From positions 38,852,430-38,916,429 of the forward strand of contig OZ007571.1 in NCBI GenBank assembly GCA_963931925.1: a stretch of DNA of 64,000 bases. The letters are read 5' to 3'. Numbering within the stretch: the stretch's first letter is position 1; every line of letters begins with the position of its first letter. The notes below the pieces were generated by a model. It was not told where the DNA came from. It ran no database searches and saw nothing but the letters and a program-made list of their open reading frames with translations. The position numbers and the translations under genes are program-made. This DNA comes from Onchidella celtica. Taxonomy: Eukaryota > Mollusca > Gastropoda > Systellommatophora > Onchidiidae. Shown one piece after another: positions 4,811 through 54,514 of this stretch.

Positions 4811-6770
4811 CACTGTAAGCAAAGGAGTGTTCGTCATACAGGGGATTTTCTGCCGTGATCGACTGAGGCCCCCATGTGTTGGCCTCCTTCAGCCCATCGA
4901 TTTTTTTACTTTGTGCCTCTCAACATCACTCAACCTCCCCGTGCTTTCGTCTAGTCAGTCTGTCCTGTGTTGAAATGTTCCCTATCGTTTGAAAGCTTAA
5001 ATACGTCGACTGGATGTTGTCCTAGTTTTGAAATTTCCTCCGCCATCAAGCAGCTTCAGCACTGAATAGTCCTGTCGTATATCGCGATTTCCTGTGACTT
5101 GGGACTCTCCCACCCCCCCCCCCCCCGCAACTTTTTTTTTGTTTTTAAAGCGTTAACCGAGATTTCTAAACTACAGCGCGGGATGATTTAATTTCCTGTT
5201 TCGGGCTCCATAACATGTTTAATATTTTATAAGGCGCACATTACCGCACCGTTTTATAAGGCCTGGGAAGCCAGCTGCTAGACTTTGCAGATCGCGACCA
5301 CGTAAAACAAAGCATGCCTATATAATTATTACCCAACAAAGCCTTACTTCTATAATTTTATATAAAGTAAGAACTATTTTAGATGTATGCCATAATACTG
5401 TAGGTCCACGTGTGAAACTTCATAATTTGTAATGGCTGTTGTTAAAGGACGGTACGATACCGTAGTCTAAATACAAAGCCAAACAGAGAAAATAGAAAGC
5501 TGATTTCACTGGTCATCTGTAGCTTATAATGTAAAATACCGTGGTCTAAAATTTAAAACAGGAAACCACCAAGAATTCCATCGCCGCATCGTGGATTTAC
5601 CGGAAAAATCAAACACTGACACAACCGTTTATCACATAATCTGCAGCGGGAGACCAAAGTACATGGACGTGCGAGCACTGATTCCATTGAACATGATTGT
5701 CTTATCGCAATAGTGACATACGCGTAGGTCAGTTTTAATGCTGCGCAAATTGGGCTGCAACATAATCGTGAATCCACACGAGTGTTATTACACGCGCATT
5801 GTGCTTTGTAAGCAAAACCATCTCATCATTTGCTTATTTTACGTATGCAACACACACGAACTTTTATTACAACTTTTTTTTTTTTACATAACACATTTAC
5901 CATATGCTGCCTCAATAAACAGCGGTTTTAAATACCTAGGTTCTACAGTGCATCACTGACTAATGTATGGATAACTAAGCTTAGATTAACGTTCGTGCAC
6001 ATGTTCTGCCTCTCTCCTCTCCCACTTAAATAAGGTGGATTAAACAATATTATTAATGAAATCATGTCGGTGGGGCCTTTTTTGCTGCCGGAATTCTGTG
6101 TGAGCAGAGAAGTTTCATTGCAAGTTTAACGTTTTATTCACATTTTTTTTTGGTTTGTAATCTGTCTCTGTATAAATCATATTGGACGACCCGGGATTTG
6201 ATAAGGCTTTAGTAAGAAATGCGAGGCTCAACATCTTGATGCCATACAGTGTTGCACCTGTACTTGTTCTTGTGAATAGTGACTCGATGAAAAGCTTACA
6301 ACTTTAATGACACACGGGAATCCGGGAGGGGTAAAGCACTGAGATGTTGATCTACCGTTTCGCACAAAATTTTTTAGATAAGACTCTTATTAAGAGACAG
6401 TCCATAGGGTCGCCCACAGAATAGACAAGACTTTCCGTGAGGTCGCCAATAACGCTAGGCCTTTTTCCTCATGGAAGGACCTGCAATCGCTTGATGGCTT
6501 TTTTCTTTTTCGAATGTTGTGTTAAACTAGGGTTTTTTAGTATTATTATTATTATTATCTTAACCCGAAGAAGCTCTTTGGTGATTGAAAACTTGTTTTT
6601 CCCGTCTACGTTTCATTATTGTTTGTCCCCGGCGCAGGGCTTTATAACACATAACCTTTTCTCTTTTGTTTTGTCACAATTAATTTCATTGGTCTACTGG
6701 TTTGATAGTTATCTTTGTTGGGCTTTCCTGGAGAGGGGAATGAATGTAGGTGGGAATAAATGAGAACAGA

Positions 6771-7097
<327 letters not shown>

Positions 7098-8236
7098 TGC
7101 ATGACAGCATGTCCGTGTGTCTATTTGCATGTGTTTTAGACAATCTTAATTGCTATTTAAGGTGGCAATTATTTTTTATAAATTAATATCGCCCATTCAC
7201 ACTTCTGTCGCATTATTTTTGTTACGTGAAAAAATAATCCCCACTTCCAACACACTGCCAAGATTTCCCCGTGGAACAAAGAAAAGTTCAGCTAACAACG
7301 AATGCATTCAACACTGGCACATTAATGTAGGCCTTATATCGCCCGTTCGCTTACGCACGTCGCTTTTTTAAATAGGCCCATAAAGTCTGTTTACTGACAT
7401 TGGAAGTTCCGCCTTTACGTTACCGTATAAATCCGTCTTGTTTTGGAATTACCAGCTTTGTATCATCCGATGAGCAACAGCGCCGTATGACCCCGGGGAA
7501 ATCAAAACTTGAATACGAACTCGATTTCTCGTTATTTCAGACTGTAGATCGGCCACATTTTACTGCGAACTAACAGATCTTTACGACAGGCACACAAAAC
7601 TGAAATAAACACTGGAGAACGGGGAAACGGGGAAGAAAATGTGAGAAGGAGCGGGAAAGAGACAAAATAATTCTATTAGATCCCAAAATGTCAGCCCACG
7701 CGCTAATGTTTAATACGAGCAGTGGCGAGTCCTTTTTTTCTCTCCCTGAGATGGGGTGTCTTCTGGGCACTGGGTGGCATATAATGCTCATTATTTATTT
7801 ATTCATTTCTCTTTTTTGTCGCTCTTGATTTTTTAAATTTATTTTTAATTATCGGTTTTCTGCCACTGCAAAAGATGGTGGCAGATGCCCACCACCCCCA
7901 CCCCCGGCTCTCTTTTCACCACAGCACCCTCCTCCCCCCCGGATCCGACGCTGATCGGTGAGAGTTTTGCTATTTTACAAGACTTAGTGTAGATCCTACT
8001 TTTCACACACAGGCCCAAAGAGGACCAAAATTAACCCCAGGCCCTGATGCAATTCGAGCGAGCCACGTGACTTGTGAAAATCTGGTAGTGTTCACACAGT
8101 GAGCTGTGTAGGCGATACAACGAGCTAATTTTCATGTGTAGCCCATTACATTTACATGTAACCACTTTGTTAGGTCCTAGCTCTCCAAAGAATCTACGAT
8201 ACGTGGTGTCTGCACACTGGGAACCACTTGAATATA
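7098..8236. other. noncoding stretch
   Basis: No gene recognised. Short C-rich tracts (7887-7940) only. Confidence 0.4.
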
Positions 8237-15897: not shown

Positions 15898-16797
15898 CTA
15901 AAATGCAATGTTCTGAGCCATCATAATCTGACAACCACTATTCACATGTTCAACAATTTGCTGCTTCAGTTTCATAACTTGGTCCCGCAGACTCCCAGCT
16001 GTGCTAACGAGATCACAATTCTGTCCTTTCAGTTCTTTGACACGATCCTCTAATCGTGAAATTCTTTCCAACTTACGTGTGCGACATTTGCGTGCTGCCA
16101 CTCGATTTCGCGCACGTTTACGCTCCAGTTTAATTTTTTCCTGAGATTCCATGTTTATGGGTGATAACGGTGGTGATGAACTGAGGCAGGGAACAGTTTG
16201 TGGTTCTTCTTTGATTGTTGGTATCCTCACATCAAGTCCAGCGGTGGACACTGGCATATTAGCCCTTGACGTTGGGAGAGCAGTTTTTGGAGGGCTTACG
16301 GTAGTCGGTGCTCGACTAACGGGGCCACCAGGCAAGGATGTTGTCGCTGAAAGTTCACTAGCTGATGTAAAAACTGGTAGTGTCGCAGCTGTTGGTACCG
16401 TGGCACTCTGAGAAAGGGCAGTTGGCACAGTTAATGTGGTAAATGTCCGATTAAGTTCTTGAGAGCGGGGTCCCGTAAGAGCACCACTGTTTTGAAGCTC
16501 TGCCAAAGCATCCACAAAGCCCCGAGCGTAAGCCTCTTGTTCCTCAGTAACACACTTAGGAAAAATGAACTGAGTCGGGGTGGGCGTTGTTGTCACCATT
16601 CCATTGGCCTGTATAATCATCTTCTCAAGCTCAGGAGAGGCCAATTTCAGCATGTTGAGATCTGGAGATGCTAAAACAGTCGCCAACTTCTTTTGCTTAT
16701 TAGCAGAACTCGAATTAAAATCAAGTGTCATACTTCTCTTTAACTTTTTCACAGCTGAATCGGGTCCGTCCGTATCAGGATAAAGCGAATGCTCCAT
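15898..16797 (-). CDS. Jun: Jun transcription factor (AP-1 subunit), intronless
   Basis: A single 299-residue ORF encodes a complete Jun-family bZIP protein, which binds TRE/CRE sites in the nucleus as a homodimer or with Fos/ATF partners. The N-terminus has the JNK-docking delta-like motif ([10 protein letters not shown], about residues 18-27) and two SP phosphoacceptor sites in LASPDL and LASPEL (Ser44, Ser54), corresponding to c-Jun Ser63/73. The motif [14 protein letters not shown] (85-98) is typical of Jun. The C-terminus has the basic region (about 222-243, with N231xxAAxxCR239) followed by a zipper with heptad residues L249, L256, L263, L270, L277 and H284. The middle (105-190) is Ser/Thr/Pro/Ala-rich and poorly conserved. 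It is about 30 residues shorter than human c-Jun. The start has a good context (A at -3, G at +4). Absence of introns matches the vertebrate JUN genes. Recognition is certain; the paralogue class (c-Jun, JunB, JunD) is not meaningful here. Confidence 0.97.
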
Positions 16798-16885
16798 CCT
16801 GGACTTCGAAGATGGTGTTCGTAAATCCAGATTGAAAAAAGGACACGCGTGTCAGTACTGACTCGCCTCTCAGTTCAAAATATAA

Positions 16886-23300: not shown

Positions 23301-26300
23301 ATTGATTCTAGATCCGCTCTGTTGGGGGTCTCCTGAAATACCTTGAAAAGTTGAGAGTGGGAATTGAGCTTGAGGATACCCGAACTTGTGTGCCCGTCCT
23401 TGGTTTTAGAAAATATTCTATGTGAGTATAACCTGTAGAAGTGAAAAAGGTACGGAGTGAAGAGATGTATTTGTGCAAAGGGAACTTAGCATGAAACCTA
23501 ATATTGTAACTCTGTTCATTTGGGATAACAGCTTATTGGGCATTTGTATCATGGATTTATGGCACATTTGCTAGTTTGCTGTACATTACACAGTGCTTTG
23601 ACTACTAAGCTGCCATTTCGATGGAATTTGGGTGACATAAATAAATTTGGTTTCAACATTCAGATTTAACATGAATAGAACAGTATATACTTCAGGTATT
23701 ATAAGAATGCAGATTGAAGTGAAAGTAAATAGTTCACAATTATACCAGTGGTTTTTGTTTCTTTGTGAAAAGTAGATCCATTACATGAAAAACTGAATGG
23801 TAGACATTCATTTCTGAAACTACATTATTTGATGTTAGTACTGTGAATAGCTCTGTATTTTTTCCCAGATTTAATTTAATACTGCAAATTGATGAGGTAT
23901 TGTTACATTTATTTTGTAATTATTTTTTTTTGTCATTCTCTTTCAGTTGTGGGTGAGCTCGGAACTGTCATAAAGAGAATTTTTTTGGTGCTCATTGACA
24001 TGTCTTCTCATAGTTTACTCTTTTTTATATGAAAGGAATTCCATCTGAAAACTTAAATGGGCTGATGTTTTTGAACTTCAGCTGTATTGTCAAATCCAAT
24101 TCATCTGTAATTGATAAGCCACATTTCTGAGTACAACTTCGAAACTATTTATGCTGTTATTATACTTTTTTATCGTGTGACATTTCTTTACTTGAGAATG
24201 TGAGATGTTAGGAGTAGTAATAAGGATTTTTAAGTGGAAACTTCATTTTATTTGTCAGTGAAAGTATGATCCAGATGGACACTATTACATACTGTGCCCT
24301 CAACATTTTCCATATGGAGCTTCACCCATCTGCTTATAAATTTGGCTCTAGTGGAAGCAAAGAAGGGCTAAGCCTCTTTGGTAAGAACATTATTATGTGA
24401 TGTGCCACCTCATGAATACTGCATGATTGAAACTTTTAGAATGCTGTAATGCAGGATGCCAACTACCCTGTGTAAATTATATTTACAATAAATAGATTGT
24501 GTCCCTAGCTCATGGAAAATCTTATTCAGGTATGTGATTTAAAAGATTGGCCGTGCTAGTGTATTTATCATGTTTTGTCTTGAACCATATTCTGTGGGAT
24601 ATTTTGAAATAGGACCAAAACACTTAGTTCCCATGCTAAATATGTCATAAAAACTTCTTGCAATTTCCATTAAAATCACATACTTATTTTATTCTCCTAG
24701 TTGACTTTGTTTATATTGACCAAAAATGTTGCTTTAGAAAAGCTGGAAGAATTCTGCTCTTTGATTGCTTATGTTTGTATGGAACTATCTGCATTATGAA
24801 CTAATTTTCAGGAATACTGAACCGATGTAGATCTTCAATTGGCAGTAAAGTGTTAAGGTAATATCTGTAGAGATTTTGATTGTGATTTACTTTTTTATAA
24901 CTTGTCTGAGTGTTATCACCTGAACGATTGAAATGTGTCTGTGTGATAATTTTTTTTGTTTATATTGAAATATTCTGTCCGCTCTACATGAAATAAGTAC
25001 AGTTAACTCAGAACTCCTGATGATAGAACAATATGGTTTACATTATGCTGACAGCTTGTCAGGAATTTTTTCCTCTGTGGTTTGTACTGTTCAAGAGAAT
25101 GCACATGCTACATACTGGAACGTCTTTAAACAAAAAAAAACTGAAATGCAACAGCATAATGGCCTGCCCAGGTTGAAAGCGCTCTTGGTCTGCCCACTCA
25201 AACCCCATCAACCATCTGGGCAGTCATGTATAATGCTGAAGGGACTCGCAGACATGATATGTGAACACGTGTTTCATGTCATACATGGGATGCAAGACTG
25301 CCTGGCAACATGGCCAAGGCAAGGGAAACTAACTTGTGCCACAAATTTTAAAATGGACAGCAGACACGATGCCTGGCCAGCAGATAGCTTATCTGTAGAT
25401 GAGGGGACAGAACCAATCCATAAAAGGGTGTGTGATGTCTATCATCTTGCAAATAGGGAGAGAAGTTGCAGGAATCTCTTTAGATTACTCAATGCTCAGT
25501 CATTTCTTACAGAGGCACAGATACTTGTCATGCCTCTATTATCTCATTCTTTATTGCACTACATGAGTGGAGGCAGTGAAAATAAAACACAGGAGCATTT
25601 TTCAACTAAAAATTTGGACATCACAGCTAGAGAGAGCACAAAGACCTGCAACTTAAACTTAGCAAGAAATAGCAACTCAAATGCTCCTGGTGTTGATGAT
25701 GCTTCTGTAATATAGTCCAAGCAGAGACTCGCTCATTTTTTTTTTGCCGGGTAATGTAACATCATGCTCAGGCATGTGAACCAACCATGTTAGGCAAATT
25801 CAAATGTATTTAGGATTTAACACTTTAACAATGAAATTTAACACTCTACGTACACAGTAATGCAAATTATTGTAAAATCTTCACACTCCATCACTGCTTT
25901 ATTTCTGTGTTAAGGTCATGTTTATAACAAAACGTATCATTTGACATGAGTGTGAGAGTACATCTAATAACATGGATATTGAGTTGTAAATCTGTCTTTT
26001 GTGACGTGGCAATAGAAAAATTCATGATGAACATGACTTATCTCTACACAGGTCTTTGAGCTACTGCATATAGTTTTTATTAAATTTGTTGCTTTCAAAT
26101 AATCATTTAATGTGACAAGTGTCCAGCACTTCCAGATCTTCTTAACAACCCCATGAAATGAAACTATTATCCTATGGCAAAAGTGGTAGTGCTCACAATC
26201 TTGCTTAGTGAAAATATTGCCACACGCTTGGGGCAGGCTTTCAAGTTTTTGTAAAGGATCAGAAACAGACAGGTCAGATGTTCTCAGAATATTAAATGAC

Positions 26301-29300
26301 CTTGGACTTACTTGATTTATATGTGCAATATCATAACTGTACATGGATTTATGACACTGGCAAAGTCGGAAAATTTCTTCATTTTTATTGTCTATTTGGA
26401 ATGCACTGTTACACCTTTACTTAACCACCTGATACAACCATGCTGTTTACTTTCAGGAAGATATTTTCTGAAATATACCTCAGTTTGACCTATTCTATAT
26501 TCTTTTCTATGTCTACTAAAAACTACCTTTGCCTTTAAACTGTTGTTAAACAGAGATAGCTTGGTATTGTTCATTAACCTGAAGTAACTGCGATGAACTC
26601 TTGAATTTACGGAGAAGAGATGCTGTGGAATTTTTGCATAAGTTTAGTCTCTTAAGGATAAATATAACAGGCAGTTTGTATTGCCCTCAAGAGGCTCTGC
26701 TTTCATTTATGTACTTCACCACAATCCTTCTTCATGTATACAACATGTGTGTACAAAACACATATGTTTAACATGTGTTCTGAACATGTCAAGAAGGTTG
26801 TTACTGTGAAAGATGATGTCATCAGAATGTGACTCAACATCAGACTAGGAGGAGGAGGGAGTTGGAAGGATATGACAAATACAAGGGAATAAAGATAGTA
26901 TATTGTTTCATTCTATTGTACATTAAATGTATCATAAGTTTTTCACTGGAATTTTTTTTACACATCAGTATCGAGGCTTGATGTGCAGTGAATTTTGCTG
27001 AACACTGTGTGAGTAATACACAAGTTTAAATTATTATTTTGTCGTCTTGAAGTAAAATTAATAACAAAAAAATGAAAAGATCGTCTTACCATCTTTTGCA
27101 CACTTGTATCATTCTTTTCCCACACAGTCATGAGTAAAAACAGCCAGGATATTAAAGATTATATTTTGTTTCCATAGACAGTGGTTCACACGCCCTTTAA
27201 AGAATGCATCAGTGCTTTGTCAGAGATATGATGCTATCAGTTTCTTCATGACACCTTGTAATGTGGAGATTGTCACTTGTCTTCAAGGCTGTCTCAAGCA
27301 CATCAAGTATATTCCTGTAAGTTGGCCTTATTGATGCATCTTTGTACATCAGAACCAATTGCAGCAAAACTTTATTTTGGTGAGGTGAAGGTGACATGAC
27401 AAATCCAGGCTTTCCCTATGGATAGGTTTTCATCGACCCTTCCTATTGCTCAAAGATTTCAGCCCGCTCACTGTTTTGACACTACCTTCATGTTGGGCCC
27501 CAAACATAATATCCAATCTTACTGAACTAAAATTTTCAGTTGTCCTTCCTGTCTGAGTCAGTCAGTCTCATTTATCATTTTTCTTGACCAACCCCTTTGC
27601 AATCTGTATCTCTTCTACAACCGATAGAACTATATAGGAGCAGGTATGTTTTTAAAATCATCCCTGTTTACTTGATTTTCCAATTTTTGACTTTAGAGTA
27701 CATGAAGCTGACTACATTTGCAAAAATGACAAATAAGTTTTGTTTTTGGCCTAGACAGATAATAAATCCGCTGTGTTAATACTAACAATTTTGTTATCTC
27801 AAACATAGAAGGGAGTGAGAGGATTATTTATAATGTATTTTGCAGAAAATTCTCTTGAGAATGTCAAAGGCACAAGCAACTATTGGGGATTGGCTTGCAT
27901 TGTCCAAGGTAATTCTTATTGCCGAGAAAATCTTGTCCCTTAAAAACGTACCTGATAGTGATGTACATGTTTAGGAATGTGACAGGGTTAAAGACTTCAC
28001 CCCCAGTGGGTTTACGTGAAATTTAATGGGACAGGTTATACTGATTTAATAATTGGAATTTTCTGAAAATGTTTCATATGGACCTGAAGAATGTTGACAA
28101 GTTGTTTTTTGAATTTGATGAAGCGGACAGACGCAAAGCTGGTTTTTGAATGATTTCCTAATTTCAGTGTAAAAGACAGGAACAGTGGGGGAGAGTTCAG
28201 TATAATAATTCATACACTGTCTTTGCAGCTTTTCCTGCAATTGAGGCACAATTTATGACAAATGAAACTGATGCTGTGACTGATTATGAAAACAAGGCCA
28301 TAATTTTTATTTTATCATTCTTTAATCTGTAGACTATTTACCATGCAGTTTACATTGGCGAGATCTGCAGGGCACAGAATCAGATGGTGGAAATTTTCAG
28401 AAAGGTACATATTTTGATTACCATTTGTGTTTCTAGCAGTGAAACCTCCATCAAGCAGTTATATTTGAGGAAGGTAAAACTAACAACCTAAGAGTGTGAC
28501 ACCTTGTGTCACAAAACATTATGGTACCGTCTTACTCCTTGAGATTCTGAAAATCAAGCATGTCTATATTTATGATGCTTGGTTCTATGTATGAAACAGC
28601 ATAGGATGCTTTCATTATGAGCATCTTGGGTTGGCTCATATGTAGTGATCTTGAGTTATAAAAAATGTGCCATTTTAGCCTAAAAATTGTTTACATGATT
28701 GATTTGTCTAACTTTGTTGCTGGTGTCTTGAAAAGTGGCTCTGTTTAGTAATGTGAAATGTTGTTACTGTCAAAGTAAGATGGAAAAATTTCCAAATGAG
28801 AAATTGAGATGAAAATATAATAAAATTGCTTGAGAATATTAAGCAGCATTTAAACTATATTTTGATCATCTCACAGATTGGTGCAGCTTTCACAGATGAC
28901 CTTCATAGATGTGCTAACATCATTTGCAAAACAGTAAGTAAATACAAATCCATTTTCATACATATGACTTGTATGTGTGTCTGCACACTAAACTGTTAGC
29001 CATGTTTTCATTTTCTTTTTGTCGTACATATAATCTGCATATTAATGAACTTTCTGATGGTAGAAATGAATTTCTGGTGTATAAAATTCATCGAAGTGAG
29101 TACATTTGTATTTTTTTCGCAGTAGCTTATTGTGGTTGAAAAAAGGTTGTCTGCATTGACTCCCAGCTGTTGGACAAAAATTTCCTATGCTGTTTAGTGT
29201 TTAACTGATTTCTCTTGATGATATTTCTGCACAGTAGATCTTACATCAAATATGGAAAAATGAATCTGATCAACATTTATTTCAGATAGACTTTGAAGCT

Positions 29301-41300: not shown

Positions 41301-42925
41301 CATGTTTCATGTCTTTGATCATTTGCCAGGATGATAATTTTTTTTATAAATCTTGTGAACTGACAATTTCTATTGTTGCTTTAAATTTGTATGAGTTGAA
41401 ATGTATCATCTCCAAAAATGTTAGCGACGAATTTGAAATATGCTTGACGAAATGTATCATACATGTAATTCAGTCTAGCTTTTCTAGGATAACAAGACAG
41501 ACCATTGTTTGTGATATGTTCCTCAGTTTTGACTTTGAATTTCATGGCAGTAAGACAATAAATAAAAGATGGAAAGGAAAAAAAGAGTGATGACAATATT
41601 GAATTTTAATCAGTGTGCCATGTGAATGGCGCATAATTATTCTTATCATTCCGTCCTAAAATGGTGAGTGGGCTGTTCCCTTAACTACAAAGTAATTAAC
41701 TCTGTGTCTTTTGTGATATAATACAGTGAACACCATCTCTTACTTTTGCAGACATGAGAGAATTGTAGATGCATTCCTAAAACTTGACCTAGACAGAAGT
41801 GATTTGCACTCTTTTTTGAAAGACACTGTTCTTCAAATGTGCTGTGAATCATCTGAGAGATCAAAGTCCATGCAAAATGCTGAACAGCCCCAGCGTGTTC
41901 CTGAATTGAGGGCAGTACACGGAAAAGAAAGTGCATCAAGCAATAAGGTCACAAAGGCAAAGAAAGCATTAGATAAGGATCAGCTTCGTACAGGTTTGGC
42001 TGGAACTAATGTAGAAACAGCATCCACAAATACTCAAGGAGAGGAGGTGGCCGACGGAATGTTTCATCCTACAACAAGTGATAAGTCAGGTAATGACATG
42101 ATAAAACACTCTCTACCTAAATCAAGAATCTGTGACAAGTCAGGATTAAGGAACAGCTTTGGCGGTGCCCCTCATGTCACCAATATTCATTGGGAAAGGC
42201 ATTTAAACTCTGTGAAAGAACATTTCGACAGAACTCCACTTCATCAGCACAGGGAAAATGTTAGTCAAGGACAAAATGTAAGTGTCACTGGGAGCTGCAT
42301 AGAAAAACTTCATCTCCCCAGAAATGTTGCTGACACTTTGGAAAAGAGCATCTTGATTAGGACAAGAGAAACTGGTGAGGTTGACATTACTGGAGTTGAG
42401 AGGAGGAAAACTGATTTGGGACCATTGTTCCCAAGAACACTTGAGCAAAGTAAACAAAGCTTGCTTTCAGAAAGACAGGCTGGTAAGACACATAGACCTG
42501 ACCGTTGTACAGAAGGTGCTACTTCATCTCAAGAAAGAGACAGAAACAGCACTCCACAGCACACAGGTTTGTTTTATGGCAGACATAAAAGAACCAGGCA
42601 GACTGACAGTATTACTGTTATGCCCAACAGTGAGACATCATCAGATGGGAAGCCTGAAACAGTCATCAACCTCAATCAAGTAATGCCAGATACTTCCGCA
42701 AATGGGTACAGAGCTAAAGGCCAGACCAAGCGCAGCAATTTTTCCTCAAACGAAACTGTATCTGAATGTGAAGAGAGCAGAAAACCAACTACTGAAAAAG
42801 CAAAGGCTGAGACAGTGAAAGGTATATGGACAGGACATACAAATACTTCATCACTTCCTGAGAGTGATACTTCTTCGAGCAAACGCAGAAAAACTTCAGC
42901 AACCACTGAAAGCTCTTCAGGATGA
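20196..42925 (+). CDS. MSH5: MSH5, meiotic MutS homologue (25 coding exons, 1194 aa)
   Basis: MSH5 forms the MutS-gamma clamp with MSH4, which stabilises recombination intermediates and promotes meiotic crossovers. It lacks the mismatch-binding domain of other MutS proteins. The model joins 25 exons with GT-AG introns and consistent phases: 20196-20348, 21235-21358, 22042-22122, 22461-22535, 22903-23024, 23312-23421, 24259-24380, 24812-24857, 27178-27316, 27846-27908, 28333-28404, 28877-28933, 29286-29358, 29718-29827, 30241-30321, 31315-31360, 31785-31826, 33491-33587, 34066-34155, 36243-36369, 37239-37463, 37979-38122, 40021-40158, 40832-40905, 41752-42925. Walker A is GPNACGKS (about 598-605) and Walker [11 protein letters not shown] (about 674-683). 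Residues 52-830 align almost without gaps to vertebrate MSH5. The last ~360 residues form a polar tail absent from vertebrate MSH5 (about 830 aa). Intron 8 (2.3 kb) contains a long unexplained ORF. No frameshift or internal stop was found. Confidence 0.95.
21235..21358 (+). CDS. MSH5: MSH5 exon 2 (52-92)
   Basis: Encodes [18 protein letters not shown], matching the start of the conserved MSH5 core. Acceptor TTTTTCAG, donor CAAA|GTATG, phase 1. Confidence 0.92.
22042..22122 (+). CDS. MSH5: MSH5 exon 3 (93-119)
   Basis: Encodes [18 protein letters not shown], which aligns without gaps to vertebrate MSH5 when this acceptor (TCCACAG) is used. An upstream acceptor (CCCATCAG at 21995-22002) would add 13 in-frame codons from 22003. 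Confidence 0.8.
22461..22535 (+). CDS. MSH5: MSH5 exon 4 (120-144)
   Basis: Encodes [10 protein letters not shown]. The donor TTCA|GTAAGC gives an ungapped join into exon 5 (DF-SYEVSKRR). A second in-frame donor at 22644 would add 36 codons not seen in relatives. Confidence 0.8.
22903..23024 (+). CDS. MSH5: MSH5 exon 5 (145-185)
   Basis: Encodes YEVSKRRIL and the [14 protein letters not shown] segment of the core. Phase 1 in, phase 0 out. Confidence 0.93.
23312..23421 (+). CDS. MSH5: MSH5 exon 6 (186-221)
   Basis: Encodes [21 protein letters not shown], a strongly conserved segment, then [10 protein letters not shown]. Donor TAT|GTGAGT, phase 2. Confidence 0.95.
24259..24380 (+). CDS. MSH5: MSH5 exon 7 (222-262)
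   Basis: Encodes the [20 protein letters not shown] segment matching the family motif before the core helices. Donor TTTG|GTAAGA, phase 1. Confidence 0.95.
24812..24857 (+). CDS. MSH5: MSH5 exon 8 (263-277)
   Basis: A 46-bp exon encoding [15 protein letters not shown]. Followed by the 2.3-kb intron 8 that holds the 231-codon ORF. Phase 2 out. Confidence 0.9.
25020..25715 (+). CDS. uncharacterised 231-codon ORF inside MSH5 intron 8
   Basis: The ORF opens after a stop at 24966 and ends at TAG 25713-25715. The predicted product is rich in His, Cys, Ser, Gln and Leu, with no signal peptide, membrane segment or domain I recognise. It lies on the MSH5 strand between exons 8 and 9. Its base composition is less A+T-rich than the surrounding intron. 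A candidate acceptor (GTACAG, ending 25002) would join it in frame to exon 7 if exon 8 were skipped, and another (CTGACAG, ending 25052) would join it in frame to exon 8. Either would make a truncated MSH5 with a novel end. It could also be a nested gene or a mobile-element remnant. No function is proposed. Confidence 0.4.
   Translation: MIEQYGLHYADSLSGIFSSVVCTVQENAHATYWNVFKQKKTEMQQHNGLPRLKALLVCPLKPHQPSGQSCIMLKGLADMICEHVFHVIHGMQDCLATWPRQGKLTCATNFKMDSRHDAWPADSLSVDEGTEPIHKRVCDVYHLANRERSCRNLFRLLNAQSFLTEAQILVMPLLSHSLLHYMSGGSENKTQEHFSTKNLDITARESTKTCNLNLARNSNSNAPGVDDASVI
27178..27316 (+). CDS. MSH5: MSH5 exon 9 (278-324)
   Basis: Encodes [20 protein letters not shown], matching the W-F-x-R-P motif shared by MutS family members. 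Phase 0 out. Confidence 0.95.
27846..27908 (+). CDS. MSH5: MSH5 exon 10 (325-345)
   Basis: A 63-bp, phase 0 exon; [19 protein letters not shown] aligns without gaps to vertebrate MSH5. Confidence 0.92.
28333..28404 (+). CDS. MSH5: MSH5 exon 11 (346-369)
   Basis: A 72-bp, phase 0 exon encoding [17 protein letters not shown], helical core segment. Confidence 0.9.
28877..28933 (+). CDS. MSH5: MSH5 exon 12 (370-388)
   Basis: A 57-bp, phase 0 exon encoding [19 protein letters not shown], with the conserved F-x-D-D-L-H motif. Confidence 0.92.
29286..29358 (+). CDS. MSH5: MSH5 exon 13 (389-412)
   Basis: Encodes [20 protein letters not shown] ending in ELDA. Matches the conserved V-D-F-E...R-F-x-V region. 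Phase 1 out. Confidence 0.92.
29718..29827 (+). CDS. MSH5: MSH5 exon 14 (413-449)
   Basis: Encodes [19 protein letters not shown] and [11 protein letters not shown], part of the clamp domain. Phase 0 out. Confidence 0.93.
30241..30321 (+). CDS. MSH5: MSH5 exon 15 (450-476)
   Basis: Encodes [12 protein letters not shown], corresponding to the IGFLLSI strand of vertebrate MSH5, then an acidic loop. Phase 0 in and out. Confidence 0.9.
31315..31360 (+). CDS. MSH5: MSH5 exon 16 (477-491)
   Basis: A 46-bp exon encoding [15 protein letters not shown], matching the LHYRSARTKEL region. Phase 1 out. Confidence 0.88.
31785..31826 (+). CDS. MSH5: MSH5 exon 17 (492-505)
   Basis: A 42-bp exon encoding [14 protein letters not shown], matching ELDALLGDLHCEI. 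The following intron carries a 766-bp CAGTG-ended element. Confidence 0.88.
32130..32895 (+). mobile_element. CAGTG-ended nonautonomous element, copy A (MSH5 intron 17)
   Basis: A 766-bp element flanked by TA on both sides (32128-32129, 32896-32897). Left end CATTTTAACCTGCTTAAGCC and right end, reverse complemented, CAATGGAACCTCC. It shares its left end, a GTGGGTGGTGATTGACC block and a CTTTCAC block with copy B. No transposase ORF. Confidence 0.75.
33491..33587 (+). CDS. MSH5: MSH5 exon 18 (506-537)
   Basis: Long-helix (lever) segment ending in [12 protein letters not shown]; ungapped against vertebrates. Phase 2 out. Confidence 0.92.
34066..34155 (+). CDS. MSH5: MSH5 exon 19 (538-567)
   Basis: Encodes [18 protein letters not shown], the conserved run before the ATPase domain. 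Phase 2 out. Confidence 0.94.
36243..36369 (+). CDS. MSH5: MSH5 exon 20 (568-610), Walker A
   Basis: Encodes RHPL followed by the P-loop [13 protein letters not shown]. This is the nucleotide-binding exon. Phase 0 out. Confidence 0.97.
36620..36945 (+). repeat. dispersed repeat, copy 2, with ~78-bp foldback arms (MSH5 intron 20)
   Basis: Left arm about 36658-36735 and right arm about 36863-36942 are nearly identical reverse complements (each includes GTTGTATGTAGCAAAGCCTC). They are separated by about 125 bp of pyrimidine-rich sequence. The right half matches the copy at 285-580. Confidence 0.75.
37239..37463 (+). CDS. MSH5: MSH5 exon 21 (611-685), signature and Walker B
   Basis: Encodes [20 protein letters not shown], the LSTFM signature helix and Walker [11 protein letters not shown]. 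Phase 0 both ends. Confidence 0.98.
37979..38122 (+). CDS. MSH5: MSH5 exon 22 (686-733)
   Basis: Encodes [14 protein letters not shown] and [10 protein letters not shown], with the conserved ATPase T-H-F switch motif. Phase 0 both ends. The next intron holds the 1-kb pogo-like element. Confidence 0.96.
38860..39860. mobile_element. pogo/Tigger-like nonautonomous element (MSH5 intron 22)
   Basis: Left end CAGTGGAATTTGGTTATAAC and right end, reverse complemented, CAGTGGACCATCATGTTTAA. Both are followed by TAACGA-type subterminal repeats characteristic of pogo/Tigger TIRs. TA follows the right end; the left flank is AA, so one side is mutated. 1001 bp, no transposase. Contains nested hairpins at 38971-39060. 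Confidence 0.75.
40021..40158 (+). CDS. MSH5: MSH5 exon 23 (734-779)
   Basis: Encodes [19 protein letters not shown] and the [11 protein letters not shown] segment, the family's dimerisation helix-turn-helix region. Confidence 0.95.
40633..40802. mobile_element. possible degenerate piggyBac-like MITE (MSH5 intron 23)
   Basis: CTAACCCTTTGAG at one end and CTCAAAGGATCAA at the other form short inverted ends (CCCTTTGAG / TCCTTTGAG) next to TTAA-like flanks (CTAA, TCAA). About 165 bp. Weak. Confidence 0.35.
40832..40905 (+). CDS. MSH5: MSH5 exon 24 (780-803)
   Basis: Encodes [16 protein letters not shown], matching the VSDLIRSGKPIKP region. Phase 2 out, which fits exon 25 at 41752 but not the candidate exon at 41151. 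Confidence 0.93.
41752..42925 (+). CDS. MSH5: MSH5 exon 25 (804-1194), long C-terminal tail
   Basis: Begins with the conserved [13 protein letters not shown] helix where vertebrate MSH5 ends soon after. It then continues for about 360 Ser/Thr/Lys/Glu-rich residues with no recognised domain and ends at TGA 42923-42925. The tail has two TP sites (about 965 and 1071), SQ/TQ sites (about 898, 975, 1063) and a basic KRRK cluster near 1181. Confidence 0.93.
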
Positions 42926-48390: not shown

Positions 48391-48532
48391 TCGTGCCTAT
48401 GTGAGGCATTGATAGCTTCCTGGACCAACGGTCACAAGTACATCTTATGAGTGACTGAAACGATAAGAAAACATTTTTATCGATCATATTATTTATTATC
48501 ACAGGTGATATTTCTTATTTTCGCGATCAGCC

Positions 48533-48829
48533 ATGCCGCGGTTGTTCGGTAAGAAGAATAAAAGCAGCGAAAACCTCAACGATGCAGCACCACAGAATGC
48601 TAGCGACCCGCCCCACCCAAACGACACAGGTAACGAAGCTAACGGGGGATCGAAGGTTACTCGAAGTGCTGTCGAGCAGCAATTACCTCCAGTCCAGCCA
48701 CCTCGACCAAAATTAGTGTTCCACTGTCAGCAAGCCCATGGCAGTCCCACAGGCATTATTTCAGGATTCACAAATGTCAAGGAACTCTACCAGAAGATAG
48801 CAGACTGTTATGATTTACCAGTTTCAGAG
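48533..48829 (+). CDS. GIPC1: GIPC exon 1 (residues 1-99)
   Basis: Begins [10 protein letters not shown]; ends in SE with donor GAG|GTGAGT, phase 0. The start has G at -3. Nearly 3 kb of MITE-filled intron follows. Confidence 0.92.
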
Positions 48830-51800
48830 GTGAGTCGGTGTACACCTATAATATAGTCTAGTATAGATCTACATGTATCAATTCCAGTAGGCTGTTTATT
48901 GTTTAGAAATGCTGTGACTATGGTCATCAAATGGTTCATTTTATACTCATAGGACTGAGTAAAAGTGCAGTGACTGTGCCGGAAGGAGTTCCGTACTCGA
49001 GCGCCAAAGACCAGAAACTAACTAAACACAACTACCCCAGCCCCTTTTCGCCTGATTAGTCAATCTGACTACCGCCCATTGATACAAACTGACTAGACCC
49101 TCACGCCCCCAGGTCCATCTGACCATTCCATGTGTTTAAATTGATAACAGTGAAAGTGGCGCTCGAGTAAGGTAGGCTACTCCTCCCACTGTGCCACCCC
49201 CCCCCAAAAAAAATTGTGTTTCGCATTTTCATTAGGCCTACTTAGTATCGATTAACAATACATAATACATAGGAAATTTTAACAAAGGAGCAGGGATGCA
49301 TTTAGTAGAATCAAAGTAACCAATATTAAGTAGGCCTAATCAAAATGCTAAACAGTAACACAATTTAGAGGGGGCTAAACCAAACTGCACTTTTAGCGGA
49401 CAGTGCTTAAATTCGTAAAATTCTCTAAAGTGCCAGCACCATTTTCAGCCTTTCAGAATTCATTGTAACTTCTGTTTTGGTAAGTAGGGCCTAAGTAGAG
49501 AAGAGATCTGGCCTAACTGACGATTTCACAGTCTTATGTATGATTTTCATGAGAGGTTTTGGGATCAGATCTATTAAATAATAAAATGAATATTATCAAG
49601 TTGTATGCTGTATAGCTAACTACATGTAGGCCTAATTATTTGATGCATACTCTTAATTCAACACCAGAATCTCACTTTTGAATACACTGCACTGCATTTC
49701 ATTAGGGAGGAGTACCTTACTTGAGCGCCACTTGATAGATTGATAAGTAACGACGTGAGGGTCTAGTCAGTTTGTATCATCGAGGCCGTAGGCCGATGTT
49801 CGTCTGGGCAGTAGTCAGATTGACATATCAGGGAAAGCCCCCGGGGTAGCTATGTATCATCTCTTTTACTTTTTTAGTTAGTTTCTGGTCTTTGGCGCTC
49901 GAGTACGGAACTCCTTCCTTTCATTACTGGTAAAGGTTTGTTTCTTTCATTAGACCATTTATAATCGTATTTATTTATTTAGCAAGGCGTTATTTACAAG
50001 GCATGCCTTGAAACTAACTCCAGCGTTATTTTCAAGGCATGTACCGTAACAGCTTCTGATTGGTCAATGAAACATGCCTTGAAAAAAATGCTGGCGTTAG
50101 TTCCAACTCCAAGGCATACCTTGGGTCCAATAAACAATACATAGCTACCCCGGGGGCTTTCCCTGATATGTCAATCTGACTACTGCCCAGACGAACATCG
50201 ACTTACGGCCTCGATGATACAAACTGACTAGACCCTCACGTGTTACATATCAATCTGATGATGCACAGTCTTAAAAGTTAAAAGGCTTCACGTTTAGAAA
50301 CAGCTTCTGATTGGTCAATGAAACATGCCTTGAAAAGAACGGTGGCGTTAGTTCCAAGGCATACCTTGAAAATAACCACTTTGATTTATTTATTTTCATT
50401 ACCATGCTGGATTGTCTGGTCATTGAAGCAAACATTTCTCTGTAGCTTGACAATGACAGTTGTCTCATGCCAGTGTTGCTAGATTGTATCTTTTAATGTA
50501 CTCTCCAATTAATTGCTGAGCCACACTTTAAAAATATCCCTGTAGAGGACTAATTTACCAGGGGGAGCAACACCCTGCACATGGCTGCTCCTAAAGTTGC
50601 ACTGCCGTGGGGATCTGGGGAGAGTACCATATGAGTGACACAACTTGTGTGACACATATTTCATGTTTTATGTGTTAATCACTGAGCTGTGCATTTACTA
50701 TAAAAACATCCACCAAGAGGATTAACTTGCCAGGAGCTCCCTGGTGCACACAGACTAAAGTCGTGTCTTTGTATAACAACCTTATAATTGTACATAGCTC
50801 AAATGGAACTACACCCGGGACCTGTACATCCCCGCAGCATGAAGTATTTCATTATTGTAATAAAGTCCGGCCAAGAGACGCATTTGGAAATCCTTCCTTC
50901 ATCATTTCTTTGAATGTCAGAATGAAGTCAAGGGAGTGATGATAGCTTCACACAGAGCATCTGGTTCTATTTGATACTCTATCATGTTCCGCAGGGTTCA
51001 CATTGTATTTTCATTGGCGGGTCCCCAAATGTGCTTATCCGTTAAATGTTTGGCGTGTCTAGTACAATTTTCTAATGTCAAGAACTGAACTATGTTTGGT
51101 AATTAAAATATGGGAAGATTTCTTGAAGAAACATAAACATGCAAGCATGGGTTCAGATTAAGGCTCAAAATGGGATTTTAGATTTCAGGTAAAAAAAAAA
51201 AGTGAGGTTGTTATTGTGTTCAGAAGGCCTTCTCTGGAAACCTATAAGTAAATTTTGGCACGCAAATTAAGATCTTTGGACTTGGATAATGTTGGACTAT
51301 TTGTAAAACTAAAAGCCGTAGCATGATACAACTTGAAAGACCAAAGATGTTGTTAGAATCATGGTAATTGGTATACTAGTTTTTGGAAGACAGTTTTTGC
51401 GAACAGCATCCAGGTAGCCGAGTCTTGCAGGCATAGTGAAGACAACAAGACTCTTACTCTCATCAACCTTAACATAAGACCAAAACCATTCTAATTGTAT
51501 AAATGCTTGCATCTCAGGAGTTTGAACTGGCAGTCTCTCATAAAATGGGTCTTTTTCCATATCAGATGATCCAAAAGCTCATCATTGCTGTTTGTAACTG
51601 TCCAGTGATAACACGACCTAAATGGGTGGCATTGAAGGGCATCTGAGATGAGTTTGTCATTATTGTCATGTGTTGGGGTTGGTCCTAATTAAAGTAATGA
51701 TAATTTCTGGGAGTATGAATATTTCATGAGCTGTCATAACATGTGGATAAATTAAGTACATTAAATGGAGTTTCACATTTGCATTTTCTCCAGATTTTAT

Positions 51801-52163
51801 TTTGTACACTCAACACACACAAGATTGACATGACGAGGTTACTGGGTGGACAGATTGGCTTAGAAGACTTCATCTTTGCCCACATCAAAGGTCAGCCCAA
51901 AGAAGTGGATGTAACAAAGTCAGAAGATGCTCTTGGCTTGACCATTACAGACAATGGTGCAGGATATGCTTTTATTAAACGCATCAAAGAGGGTAGCATA
52001 ATGGACCAAGTGCCCTTTATAGCTGTTGGAGACCATATCGAAAAAATTAATGGTGAAAGTTTAGTGGGATGTCGACATTTTGAAGTGGCCAAAAAGTTAA
52101 AAGAAATTACTAAAGGATCAACATTTACCCTGCGTACAGTGGAACCCATGAAATCAGGTTTTG
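48533..52163 (+). CDS. GIPC1: GIPC-family PDZ adaptor (partial: exons 1-2 only)
   Basis: GIPC proteins are cytoplasmic adaptors whose PDZ domain binds receptor C-termini (for example RGS-GAIP, integrins, neuropilin) and whose C-terminal GH2 domain binds myosin VI for endocytic transport. Exon 1 (48533-48829) encodes residues 1-99: a charged, low-complexity N-terminus, a [13 protein letters not shown] run, and the GH1 dimerisation segment including [20 protein letters not shown]. Exon 2 (51794-52163) encodes about 100-222: the end of GH1 ([26 protein letters not shown]) and the PDZ domain with carboxylate-binding loop [20 protein letters not shown]. The last codon is split (G|GTAAGT). The GH2 domain is not visible in the remaining 11.8 kb, so the gene probably continues past the window. 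The symbol denotes the family; 1:1 orthology to a vertebrate GIPC is not implied. Confidence 0.92.
48981..49187 (+). mobile_element. hAT-type MITE copy A with perfect 8-bp TSD (GIPC intron 1)
   Basis: Terminal inverted repeats GGAAGGAGTTCC...TACTCGAGCGCCA and GGGAGGAGTAGC...TTACTCGAGCGCCA. Flanked by ACTGTGCC on both sides (48973-48980, 49188-49195). 8-bp duplications fit hAT-type transposition. Confidence 0.88.
49705..49918 (-). mobile_element. hAT-type MITE copy B with perfect 8-bp TSD (GIPC intron 1)
   Basis: Inverted relative to copy A, same ends, 214 bp. Flanked by TTTCATTA on both sides (49697-49704, 49919-49926). Internal region shared with 50141-50262. Confidence 0.88.
49996..50370. 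repeat. composite palindromic cluster (GIPC intron 1)
   Basis: Arms at 49996-50042 and 50072-50122 are imperfect reverse complements rich in CAAGGCAT. CAAGGCATGCCTTG (49997-50010) is itself a perfect palindrome. A segment starting CAGCTTCTGATTGGTCAATG (50049 on) recurs at 50301-50370. Between them, 50141-50262 matches the inner part of the hAT-type MITE but lacks its ends. Confidence 0.75.
50371..51793. other. remainder of GIPC intron 1
   Basis: No exon or repeat recognised. A+T-rich with short A run at 51190-51201. Confidence 0.4.
51794..52163 (+). CDS. GIPC1: GIPC exon 2 (residues 100-222, PDZ)
   Basis: Acceptor TTTTCTCCAG, donor TTTG|GTAAGT, phase 1 out. Contains the entire PDZ domain in one exon, through [13 protein letters not shown]. 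Confidence 0.95.
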
Positions 52164-54514
52164 GTAAGTATGCTGAATGTTTGTCTGTTGTTTCAGAGCT
52201 TTAGTAAACTTTCTCTCTTAGCTAAAAGGTTTGAATTGTTCTGGTGAAGTGAATGCACATTGCATTAATTGCATCATTGGTCACTCTGCTCACAATTCCT
52301 TTGTTTGTACTGGTAGATGCACTAAAAGAATCACAGTATTTAGGTCAAGTGTACTTTTCAGGGATTATAGTAATCTGAAAACCCTGACATTACAAAACTT
52401 TAAAGATTTTAAAAGAAAACTTGAGCAAACTGAGCAGTGCATAATTTTGTTTTTGCCATCAAAGGTTGTGTTACTTGAAAGTTTGAACAGTTACTTTGGG
52501 ATACAAGATATCTTTTACTTACAATTGTCTGCTCTGGTAAGCCCAAAAAAGGAGGTTTAAGGGAGGGGGAGTTGGGGGGAGAGAGGGATGAAGGATTTCA
52601 GACATGCTGTCACCTGGAATGAACTCATTTTGTCAGAATTAGAAGCATTCTTGCAGCCAGCTAATTGTCCATGATACCCAGCCTTTAAACAGTTCTTTGC
52701 ATCTGGTGGCAGGTGACCTGTTTGATTTGATGGCATTTTAAACTAATAGACATATTGATCTGGGCCTCTTTGTAGTTTTAGCATAAACCATGGCAAATGT
52801 TGGAATCAGTCGCTGTTGAAATTTGAAAAAAAGAGAGTTAAGTTTGTACAGTGCTGCACAGAAATGGCACACATTGGCAAATGGCATTTTAACATTTCTA
52901 AGTGCTCTTCCTGATGTCAGATACTAGTACTCAAATGTTCAAAAGTCATTCTGGAAAGAAAAAGCTACAATGAACTTGCTAATGTTTTTGTACTTTTCTT
53001 TTTTTTAATCAGAGAAGCAGCACGGTTAAGAATGAGAATTATAAATCAAAGTGAACATTTGAATGCACATTTTATCAGTGAGTCATTTATTTGCCAGTAG
53101 CTGGCCTGTTGGGCTACATCTTTTCTGTTTTGTATGCATCACATTTTGAGAGATACCCCCCAGGACAGAAGTTTAAGTGCTCACTGCATTTTCTTCAGAT
53201 GAATAAGTCAGTGCTTCCAATGTGTCTTGCCATTTATTTCATTGTCATCAAATTGTTATATCAGTAGAATGATTTTTATCTCCGCCCTTAAGGATTTGAG
53301 TCTGTGTGACCCTTTTTTTGTTATGAGTGCCTTTGAGAAAGAATTGCATTCTCTGTTTCTTCATCATTCATTCATGATTTTATTCTTTACAGTATTTTTC
53401 AAATATATTTTTATATACACGCCCATCTTCATAATTATGGCTTTATCAGTTTGCTGCTTAGCATTGCTTAGTGGTTTGATTTCATTTGAAGGTTTTAGCA
53501 ACTTGTCAGTTTTTTGTGGTAATACTGAAGACACAGTGTACCCAGCGCTATACACTTTATTTTTATGAAATCCCATGCGCCTTGACAAATAATTATGTGG
53601 GAGGGGCCTTCTCATTTTTATTTGTGATATTCACTCGTTTATTTTTTAATTCCGATTGGAAAGAAAAATGAATCTAGCCTTTCTTTACGTAAGCTAAGCT
53701 AGCTTTGCCATGTTTTCATCGGTGTCTTTTTAGAGTGGCGGTTAAATATTATGTACAACATATTACGGCAGAATGCCACTGAAAAGTGCGCTTAAACGCA
53801 GCATATACTATAATACTATCAGTCTCTGCTGTCTATTGCTCCTCGAAGGAGACTGGAGAGCTATGTGAGAGGATCGGGGGTAAACATCGCGAGCGCTGGA
53901 GTGCCTGCATTGTGTGATCTTCTACAGCACAAGTAGGACAGATAGTGCAATTGTCTGTATGCTGATGAAAGCATTTTATGGAGAGCAGTAGATTTGGAAA
54001 GTGTTCAGATTATTTTATTGTGTAGAGGCAGGGAAAACAAAGACGTGATTTAAGTTTTAAAAAAAAGAAAAAGATGTGGCAGACAGAGAACAGTACGGTA
54101 GTAGGAAATGTCTGTGACCCAGAAACTTTTGGCTTTTCAAAAAGTTAACAGGCAAGAAATTGTCGGCTTCTTATGATTCTCTTTCTGCTGTCTGAAGGTG
54201 TAATTTTAATGTAGCGAAGTGCAAATTTATAAAACAGCAAAAGAAAACTGTCAAGTCAGATTCTTGTCTGATGCTGTAACTGTAAGTCATGGTTGATAGG
54301 GTTTGAAAAGAGAAATTTAAGCCGTCTCTCCAGTGGGTGGTTTGAAATTGGTTTACCTTGCTGTTTTCTCCCAGTGTTTGTGGTCCAGACTGAGTGACAT
54401 ATTAGAGCATCAACTCCTTATCTAAAGTCTTCAGCAGCCTTGTCATTCATTAGATCAACGTTTATACATCTTATGTAATTTCTTGATTGATTTAACGGAA
54501 AAGAAGAGCGATGG
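52164..54514. other. region after GIPC exon 2 (probable intron 2)
   Basis: A donor GTAAGT opens the region. No GH2-encoding exon found. A 109-codon ORF (52231-52560) has no recognisable features. Confidence 0.4.

Follow-up and report, generated by a model that had tools for sequence, protein, structure and literature searches.

We conclude with high confidence that the 231-codon open reading frame (ORF) at 25020-25715 belongs to a decayed copy of a non-autonomous transposon in an intron of MSH5, and that the frame most likely arose by chance and is neither a gene nor an exon. Coordinates refer to the window, i.e. the whole stretch of 64,000 nucleotides that was analysed. The ORF starts with the ATG at 25020 and ends with the TAG at 25713-25715, within a stop-to-stop frame of 248 codons (24969-25715). 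It is read from the same strand as MSH5, and the host intron is bounded by the exon ending at 24857 and the exon starting at 27178 (QWFTRPL...). An earlier reading of the DNA, made from the letters alone (hereafter the sequence-only reading), had reported the same position, length and strand, which were confirmed. The features discussed below are the following:

24858..27177, plus strand: MSH5 intron holding the insertion, defined by the flanking exons from reading frame and splice sites
24998..24999, no strand: TA, probable left target-site duplication, directly 5' of the element's first CAG
25000..25806, plus strand: relic of a non-autonomous transposon with terminal inverted repeats (TIRs), probably pogo/Tigger-like; from the profile match, exact ends by eye
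25000..25022, plus strand: left TIR, degenerate (CAGTTAACTC...), from the comparison of majority ends (20/22)
25020..25715, plus strand: open frame of 231 codons, most likely chance (codon usage P = 0.60 under the dinucleotide null; nine majority stops in other copies)
25785..25806, minus strand: right TIR, strongly degenerate, from the boundary alignment and the majority ends, extent by eye
25807..25808, no strand: TA, probable right target-site duplication, directly 3' of the degenerate right end AAATTCAAATG

The open frame and its host gene

The length of frames expected by chance was estimated from 64-kb windows that were simulated after training on the remaining sequence, with the three longest ORFs and one tandem repeat excluded. 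Frames of at least 248 codons were present in 3 of 1000 windows simulated with an order-2 Markov model and in 4 of 1000 simulated with an order-4 model (7 of 2000 together); the median longest frames were 156 and 158 codons, respectively. Judged by these values, the previous estimate that such an ORF should occur once in several hundred windows is fair per window, and the figure of about 130 codons for chance ORFs was too short. Extrapolated to the 1.14-Gb genome by our own arithmetic, this rate corresponds to about 62 frames of such length. The same intron also contains a minus-strand frame of 150 codons (25967-26416), the length of which is close to the chance median of 156-158 codons and the codon usage of which gave P = 0.96.

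The G+C content of the stop-to-stop frame (24969-25715) is 41.2%, as compared with 27.0% in the preceding (24858-24968) and 33.8% in the following part of the intron (25716-27177). The higher G+C content relative to the intron had been noticed before; it is a property of the inserted repeat.

The exons of the host gene were read by frame, and 13 of its acceptors were located. In a PDB search with the joined exon pieces the matches were MutS homologues, with Msh3 as the best (E = 1.3e-36). Because the matches are MutS homologues and MSH5 is absent among the 37 PDB sequences listed, the name MSH5 is that given by the sequence-only reading, and is used here as an assumption. The last MSH5 exon (41717-42925) has coding-like codon usage in its tail (P = 0.007), and about 360 of its codons, as judged by eye, presumably run beyond the conserved C-terminus of MSH5. 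The tail had no match in Pfam; by eye it is of low complexity, and it contains two S/T-P sites. The nearest lead for it is the phosphorylation of C. elegans MSH-5 by CDK-2, as reported in PMC9173770.

The repeat family and its ends

When the translated ORF was used to search the 1.14-Gb genome of which the window is part, six other places were detected, two of which overlap, and all of them had in-frame stops. DNA searches with this copy and with two others revealed at least 30 further distinct copies in this genome, many of them fragmentary; for this count, which is a lower bound obtained from the best candidates scored, overlapping or neighbouring rows were merged by hand and deduplicated by position. 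The DNA matches were 64-88% identical to the query copy. A profile built from five other copies, with the window copy left out, matched the window in two pieces, which together span 24997-25812 and correspond to model positions 133-721 and 818-1005, the window copy being without 96 model positions near 25622-25626. Nine of the 44 match pieces, representing eight other copies and the window copy, begin at model position 131-136, and nine, again from eight other copies and the window copy, finish at model position 998-1010. These shared start and end positions show that the ends of the element are fixed, and they give it a length of about 870 bp. The ORF, from ATG to stop, lies wholly within the window copy (25000-25806).

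Two other interpretations, both weighed by eye, were dropped because the family ends are elsewhere: a retrocopy, suggested by runs of A and of T close to 25132 and 25738, and an element whose limits would be the inverted repeat 25131-25144/25733-25746. The flanks of two relic copies (L009:2440-2842 and L013:1906-2238) share a further, less diverged repeat with 87-90% identity. Among the papers returned by a literature search, none appeared, in the portions covered, to deal with this locus or this repeat family.

The family's terminal sequence is CAGTCGACTC. When the majority left end, CAGTCGACTCTGCCTAACAGAA, was compared with the reverse complement of the majority right end, CAGTCGACTCTGCTTAATAGAA, 20 of 22 positions were equal, and none of 2000 shuffles was as good; thus the two majority ends are terminal inverted repeats, a feature expected of a pogo/Tigger-like element. 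Ends taken from different copies pair with a mean score of 23.3 (17.4 for shuffled and 17.7 for same-strand ends). Within individual copies little of the pairing survives: the five copies with both ends gave scores of 16-25 with alignments mostly out of register, and in the window copy the in-register pairing of the ends has gone. Inspection by eye of 11 degraded left ends, including that of the window copy, found a clear TA in eight, an ambiguous one in two and none in one; at the right ends, equally degraded and also 11 with the window copy, a clear TA was seen in only four. The exact end pattern TACAGTCGACTCNGCNTAAC had no match in the genome, and neither had the backward control. The zero count is consistent with an old age of the family and is no positive evidence for it.

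Coding history of the frame and alternative readings

For 222 of the 231 ORF codons five or more copies could be aligned. At nine of these 222 codons a majority of the other copies that align have a stop: 25059 (9/16), 25092 (13/16), 25113 (13/16), 25143 (11/16), 25209 (12/17), 25221 (11/15), 25311 (11/15), 25467 (11/13) and 25518 (8/11). The identical nine stops were obtained when 18 other copies were aligned by means of a profile that included the window copy. These majority stops show that the ancestor of the family did not encode the ORF. Mismatch frequencies at the first, second and third codon positions were 0.356, 0.343 and 0.356 between the window copy and the others, and 0.371, 0.353 and 0.320 among the other copies themselves. 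On the branch leading to the window copy 32/161, 24/159 and 34/170 positions had changed (P = 0.43), and 50 of the 207 indel steps separating it from the others were multiples of three. The window copy is about as distant from the other copies as those are from one another, hence it does not represent an older coding branch.

Against a null of simulated open frames with the dinucleotides of the ORF, its codon usage did not stand out and is not coding-like (P = 0.60). Under the same null the coding controls gave the following values (with the gene in parentheses): 0/1000 (MSH5), 0.003 (JUN), 0.006 (GIPC) and 0.007 (MSH5 tail). For ten other ORFs of the window, chosen by us, P ranged from 0.21 to 0.97, with none below 0.2. 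The dinucleotide null replaced a null based on base composition only because, although the ORF had passed the latter (0/5000), three of five other ORFs had passed it as well (P of 0.0015 or less). JUN is a JUN-like open stretch with Jun and bZIP domains on the minus strand (15898-16851), and the GIPC exons are on the plus strand at 48509-48856 and 51740-52204. At 6750-7186 there are overlapping ORFs of 129 and 140 codons composed of repeated IYLS units, such as would arise from a simple DNA repeat.

Some observations point in the opposite direction. The window copy is free of all nine majority stops, whereas 13 other copies had lost 21 of 76; in the remaining 5 of the 18 other copies none of the nine codons was alignable. 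We take this loss to be the result of picking the copy for its open frame; recent selection would leave the same pattern. From the background of the other copies, the changes expected at codon positions one, two and three were 30.3, 32.0 and 27.7, as against 32, 24 and 34 seen; fewer second-position and more third-position changes is the direction that constraint would produce, and the difference is not significant (P = 0.17). The ORF frame also has the best codon score of the six frames, and its GC1 is somewhat raised (P = 0.055).

Acceptor scoring was trained on the 13 MSH5 acceptors, and 1398 other AGs in 20000-43000 served for comparison. The sequence-only reading had proposed acceptors in phase with two upstream exons. 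Their phase was correct as determined by hand, the AG ending at 25002 being in phase with the exon ending at 24380 and the AG ending at 25054 (not 25052, as previously given) with the exon ending at 24857. Both score poorly, at -1.74 and -4.75, and are exceeded by 514 and 810, respectively, of the 1398 other AGs; when the MSH5 acceptors were left out in turn, 12 of the 13 scored 2.78 to 10.01 and one scored -0.59. The putative acceptor at 25002 consists of the CAG with which the left TIR begins. Between the ORF stop and 26888 there is no AATAAA, though ATTAAA is present at 26079 and 26291.

A protein profile search, which had been suggested before, identified no family or homologue of the ORF in the libraries searched. 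Pfam, PHROGs and NCBIfam gave no families, PDB gave a single match with E = 1.8, and no relative was detected in IMG/VR, GTDB genomes or phage records. Rfam, applied to 20000-43500, gave nothing at gathering score. The AlphaFold2 model of the single ORF sequence had a mean pLDDT of 32.9 and was uninformative.

Three other explanations of the open frame have to be weighed against these results. That the copy shed its stops after insertion and then came into use, either as a small nested gene or as an alternative terminal exon of MSH5, is, in our judgement, very unlikely, and there is likewise only a slim chance that its product is a truncated MSH5 without the ATPase or a new small meiotic protein. 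All nine majority stops are indeed gone, in-phase AGs are available for both upstream exons, and the fewest changes on the branch fall on second codon positions, non-significantly by either comparison. Nevertheless, hundreds of other AGs outscore the candidate acceptors, the codon usage fits open non-coding DNA, the downstream region is without AATAAA, and no homologue was found in the libraries searched. The open frame itself and some non-significant leanings are all that speaks for a de novo exon, and recent recruitment of the frame is unlikely. The two proposals of this kind made by the sequence-only reading fared alike: the alternative terminal exon received no positive support, given the weak acceptors, the origin of one of them in the TIR and a codon usage that is not coding-like, and the nested gene received none either, as no homologue turned up in the searched libraries and the codon positions gave no significant signal. 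Should such recruitment be real, this would be a documented case of a coding exon born within a conserved meiosis gene.

The ORF might instead be the remnant of a transposon-encoded protein, left from the protein gene of an autonomous element; in its favour, the stretch belongs to a transposon family and yields translated matches between copies. We regard this as extremely improbable in view of the nine majority stops, the frame-breaking indels, the near-equal divergence of the window copy at the three codon positions, its distance from the other copies, which is no greater than theirs from each other, and the lack of any Pfam family in the ORF. Thus, of the earlier suggestion that the ORF is a relic of a mobile ORF, the mobile element has held and the old mobile ORF, contradicted by the majority stops, has not. 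A plain chance ORF in unique intron sequence, without a mobile element, would agree with the 3-4 per 1000 simulated windows that contain a 248-codon frame, but it is at odds with the dispersed copies, their shared ends and their inverted repeats, and its probability is close to nil. The preferred reading, a chance frame in a decayed transposon copy, carries little biological weight, the object being an intronic copy of an old transposon. The case does serve as a caution that even an ORF of 231 codons, rare as it is in a single window, may mean nothing, and that aligning the sister copies of a repeat quickly shows whether a frame was ancestral.

Probable relation to pogo/Tigger elements

According to PMC7386202, the TIRs of pogo elements are mostly no longer than 40 bp and their target duplications are mostly TA. 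The same genome contains at least 150 matches to DDE_1, the pogo/Tigger-type transposase (150 of 407 candidates were scored). Among ten DDE_1 loci that were fetched, four (L068, L069, L070 and L072) have TA-flanked inverted ends on both sides and L073 has one on one side; these ends read CAGTAGTCT(C/T)CGC(C/A)TAAGAAC and have the form CAGTAGTCTCCGCCTAAGAACC, give or take one base. In the remaining five loci no such ends were present in the two best places per strand. The end-pattern scores in the DDE_1 loci (14-16 of 22) are not above the maxima of shuffled loci (15-17), therefore the evidence lies in the symmetric, TA-flanked placement. The alignment between the family end and the DDE_1 end was equalled by none of 5000 shuffles, in a comparison that was chosen after seeing the ends, which are similar and not identical. 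The relics and the ten fetched loci have no internal sequence in common beyond one 24-nt match, and for this reason the designation pogo-like is no more than probable. In the ORF frame no Pfam family, hence no DDE_1 transposase, was detected at E values up to 10; the element is therefore classed as non-autonomous only.

Elsewhere in the genome, four same-strand DDE_1 matches with open frames of 552-646 codons lie within about 53 kb (G000:C1:7956372-8008964), possibly a tandem or host-recruited transposase cluster; another group, of three DDE_1 matches, is at C10:35026903-35045670.

The history that we propose is as follows. A non-autonomous TIR transposon would have inserted long ago at a TA in the MSH5 intron, with a DDE_1 transposase of the pogo/Tigger type as the most likely agent of its mobilisation. 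The copy would then have decayed without selection, like its sister copies, and point mutations may have happened to clear every stop in one frame, giving rise to the 231-codon frame. This frame would not be expected to be translated, and would be removed with the intron by splicing.

As an open frame inside an intronic transposon copy, the case resembles de novo and transposon-derived exons, from which it differs in being without codon-usage or good splice-site evidence of use. The likeness to non-autonomous pogo/Tigger elements (MITE-like, of the IS630-Tc1-mariner group) comprises short inverted repeats that open with CAGT, a TA beside many of the ends, no transposase gene seen, and ends that can be aligned to some DDE_1 ends of the same genome. 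In contrast to such elements, this family has a full length of about 870 bp, is old and degraded, and is internally dissimilar, beyond the 24-nt match, to the ten DDE_1 loci with which it was compared.
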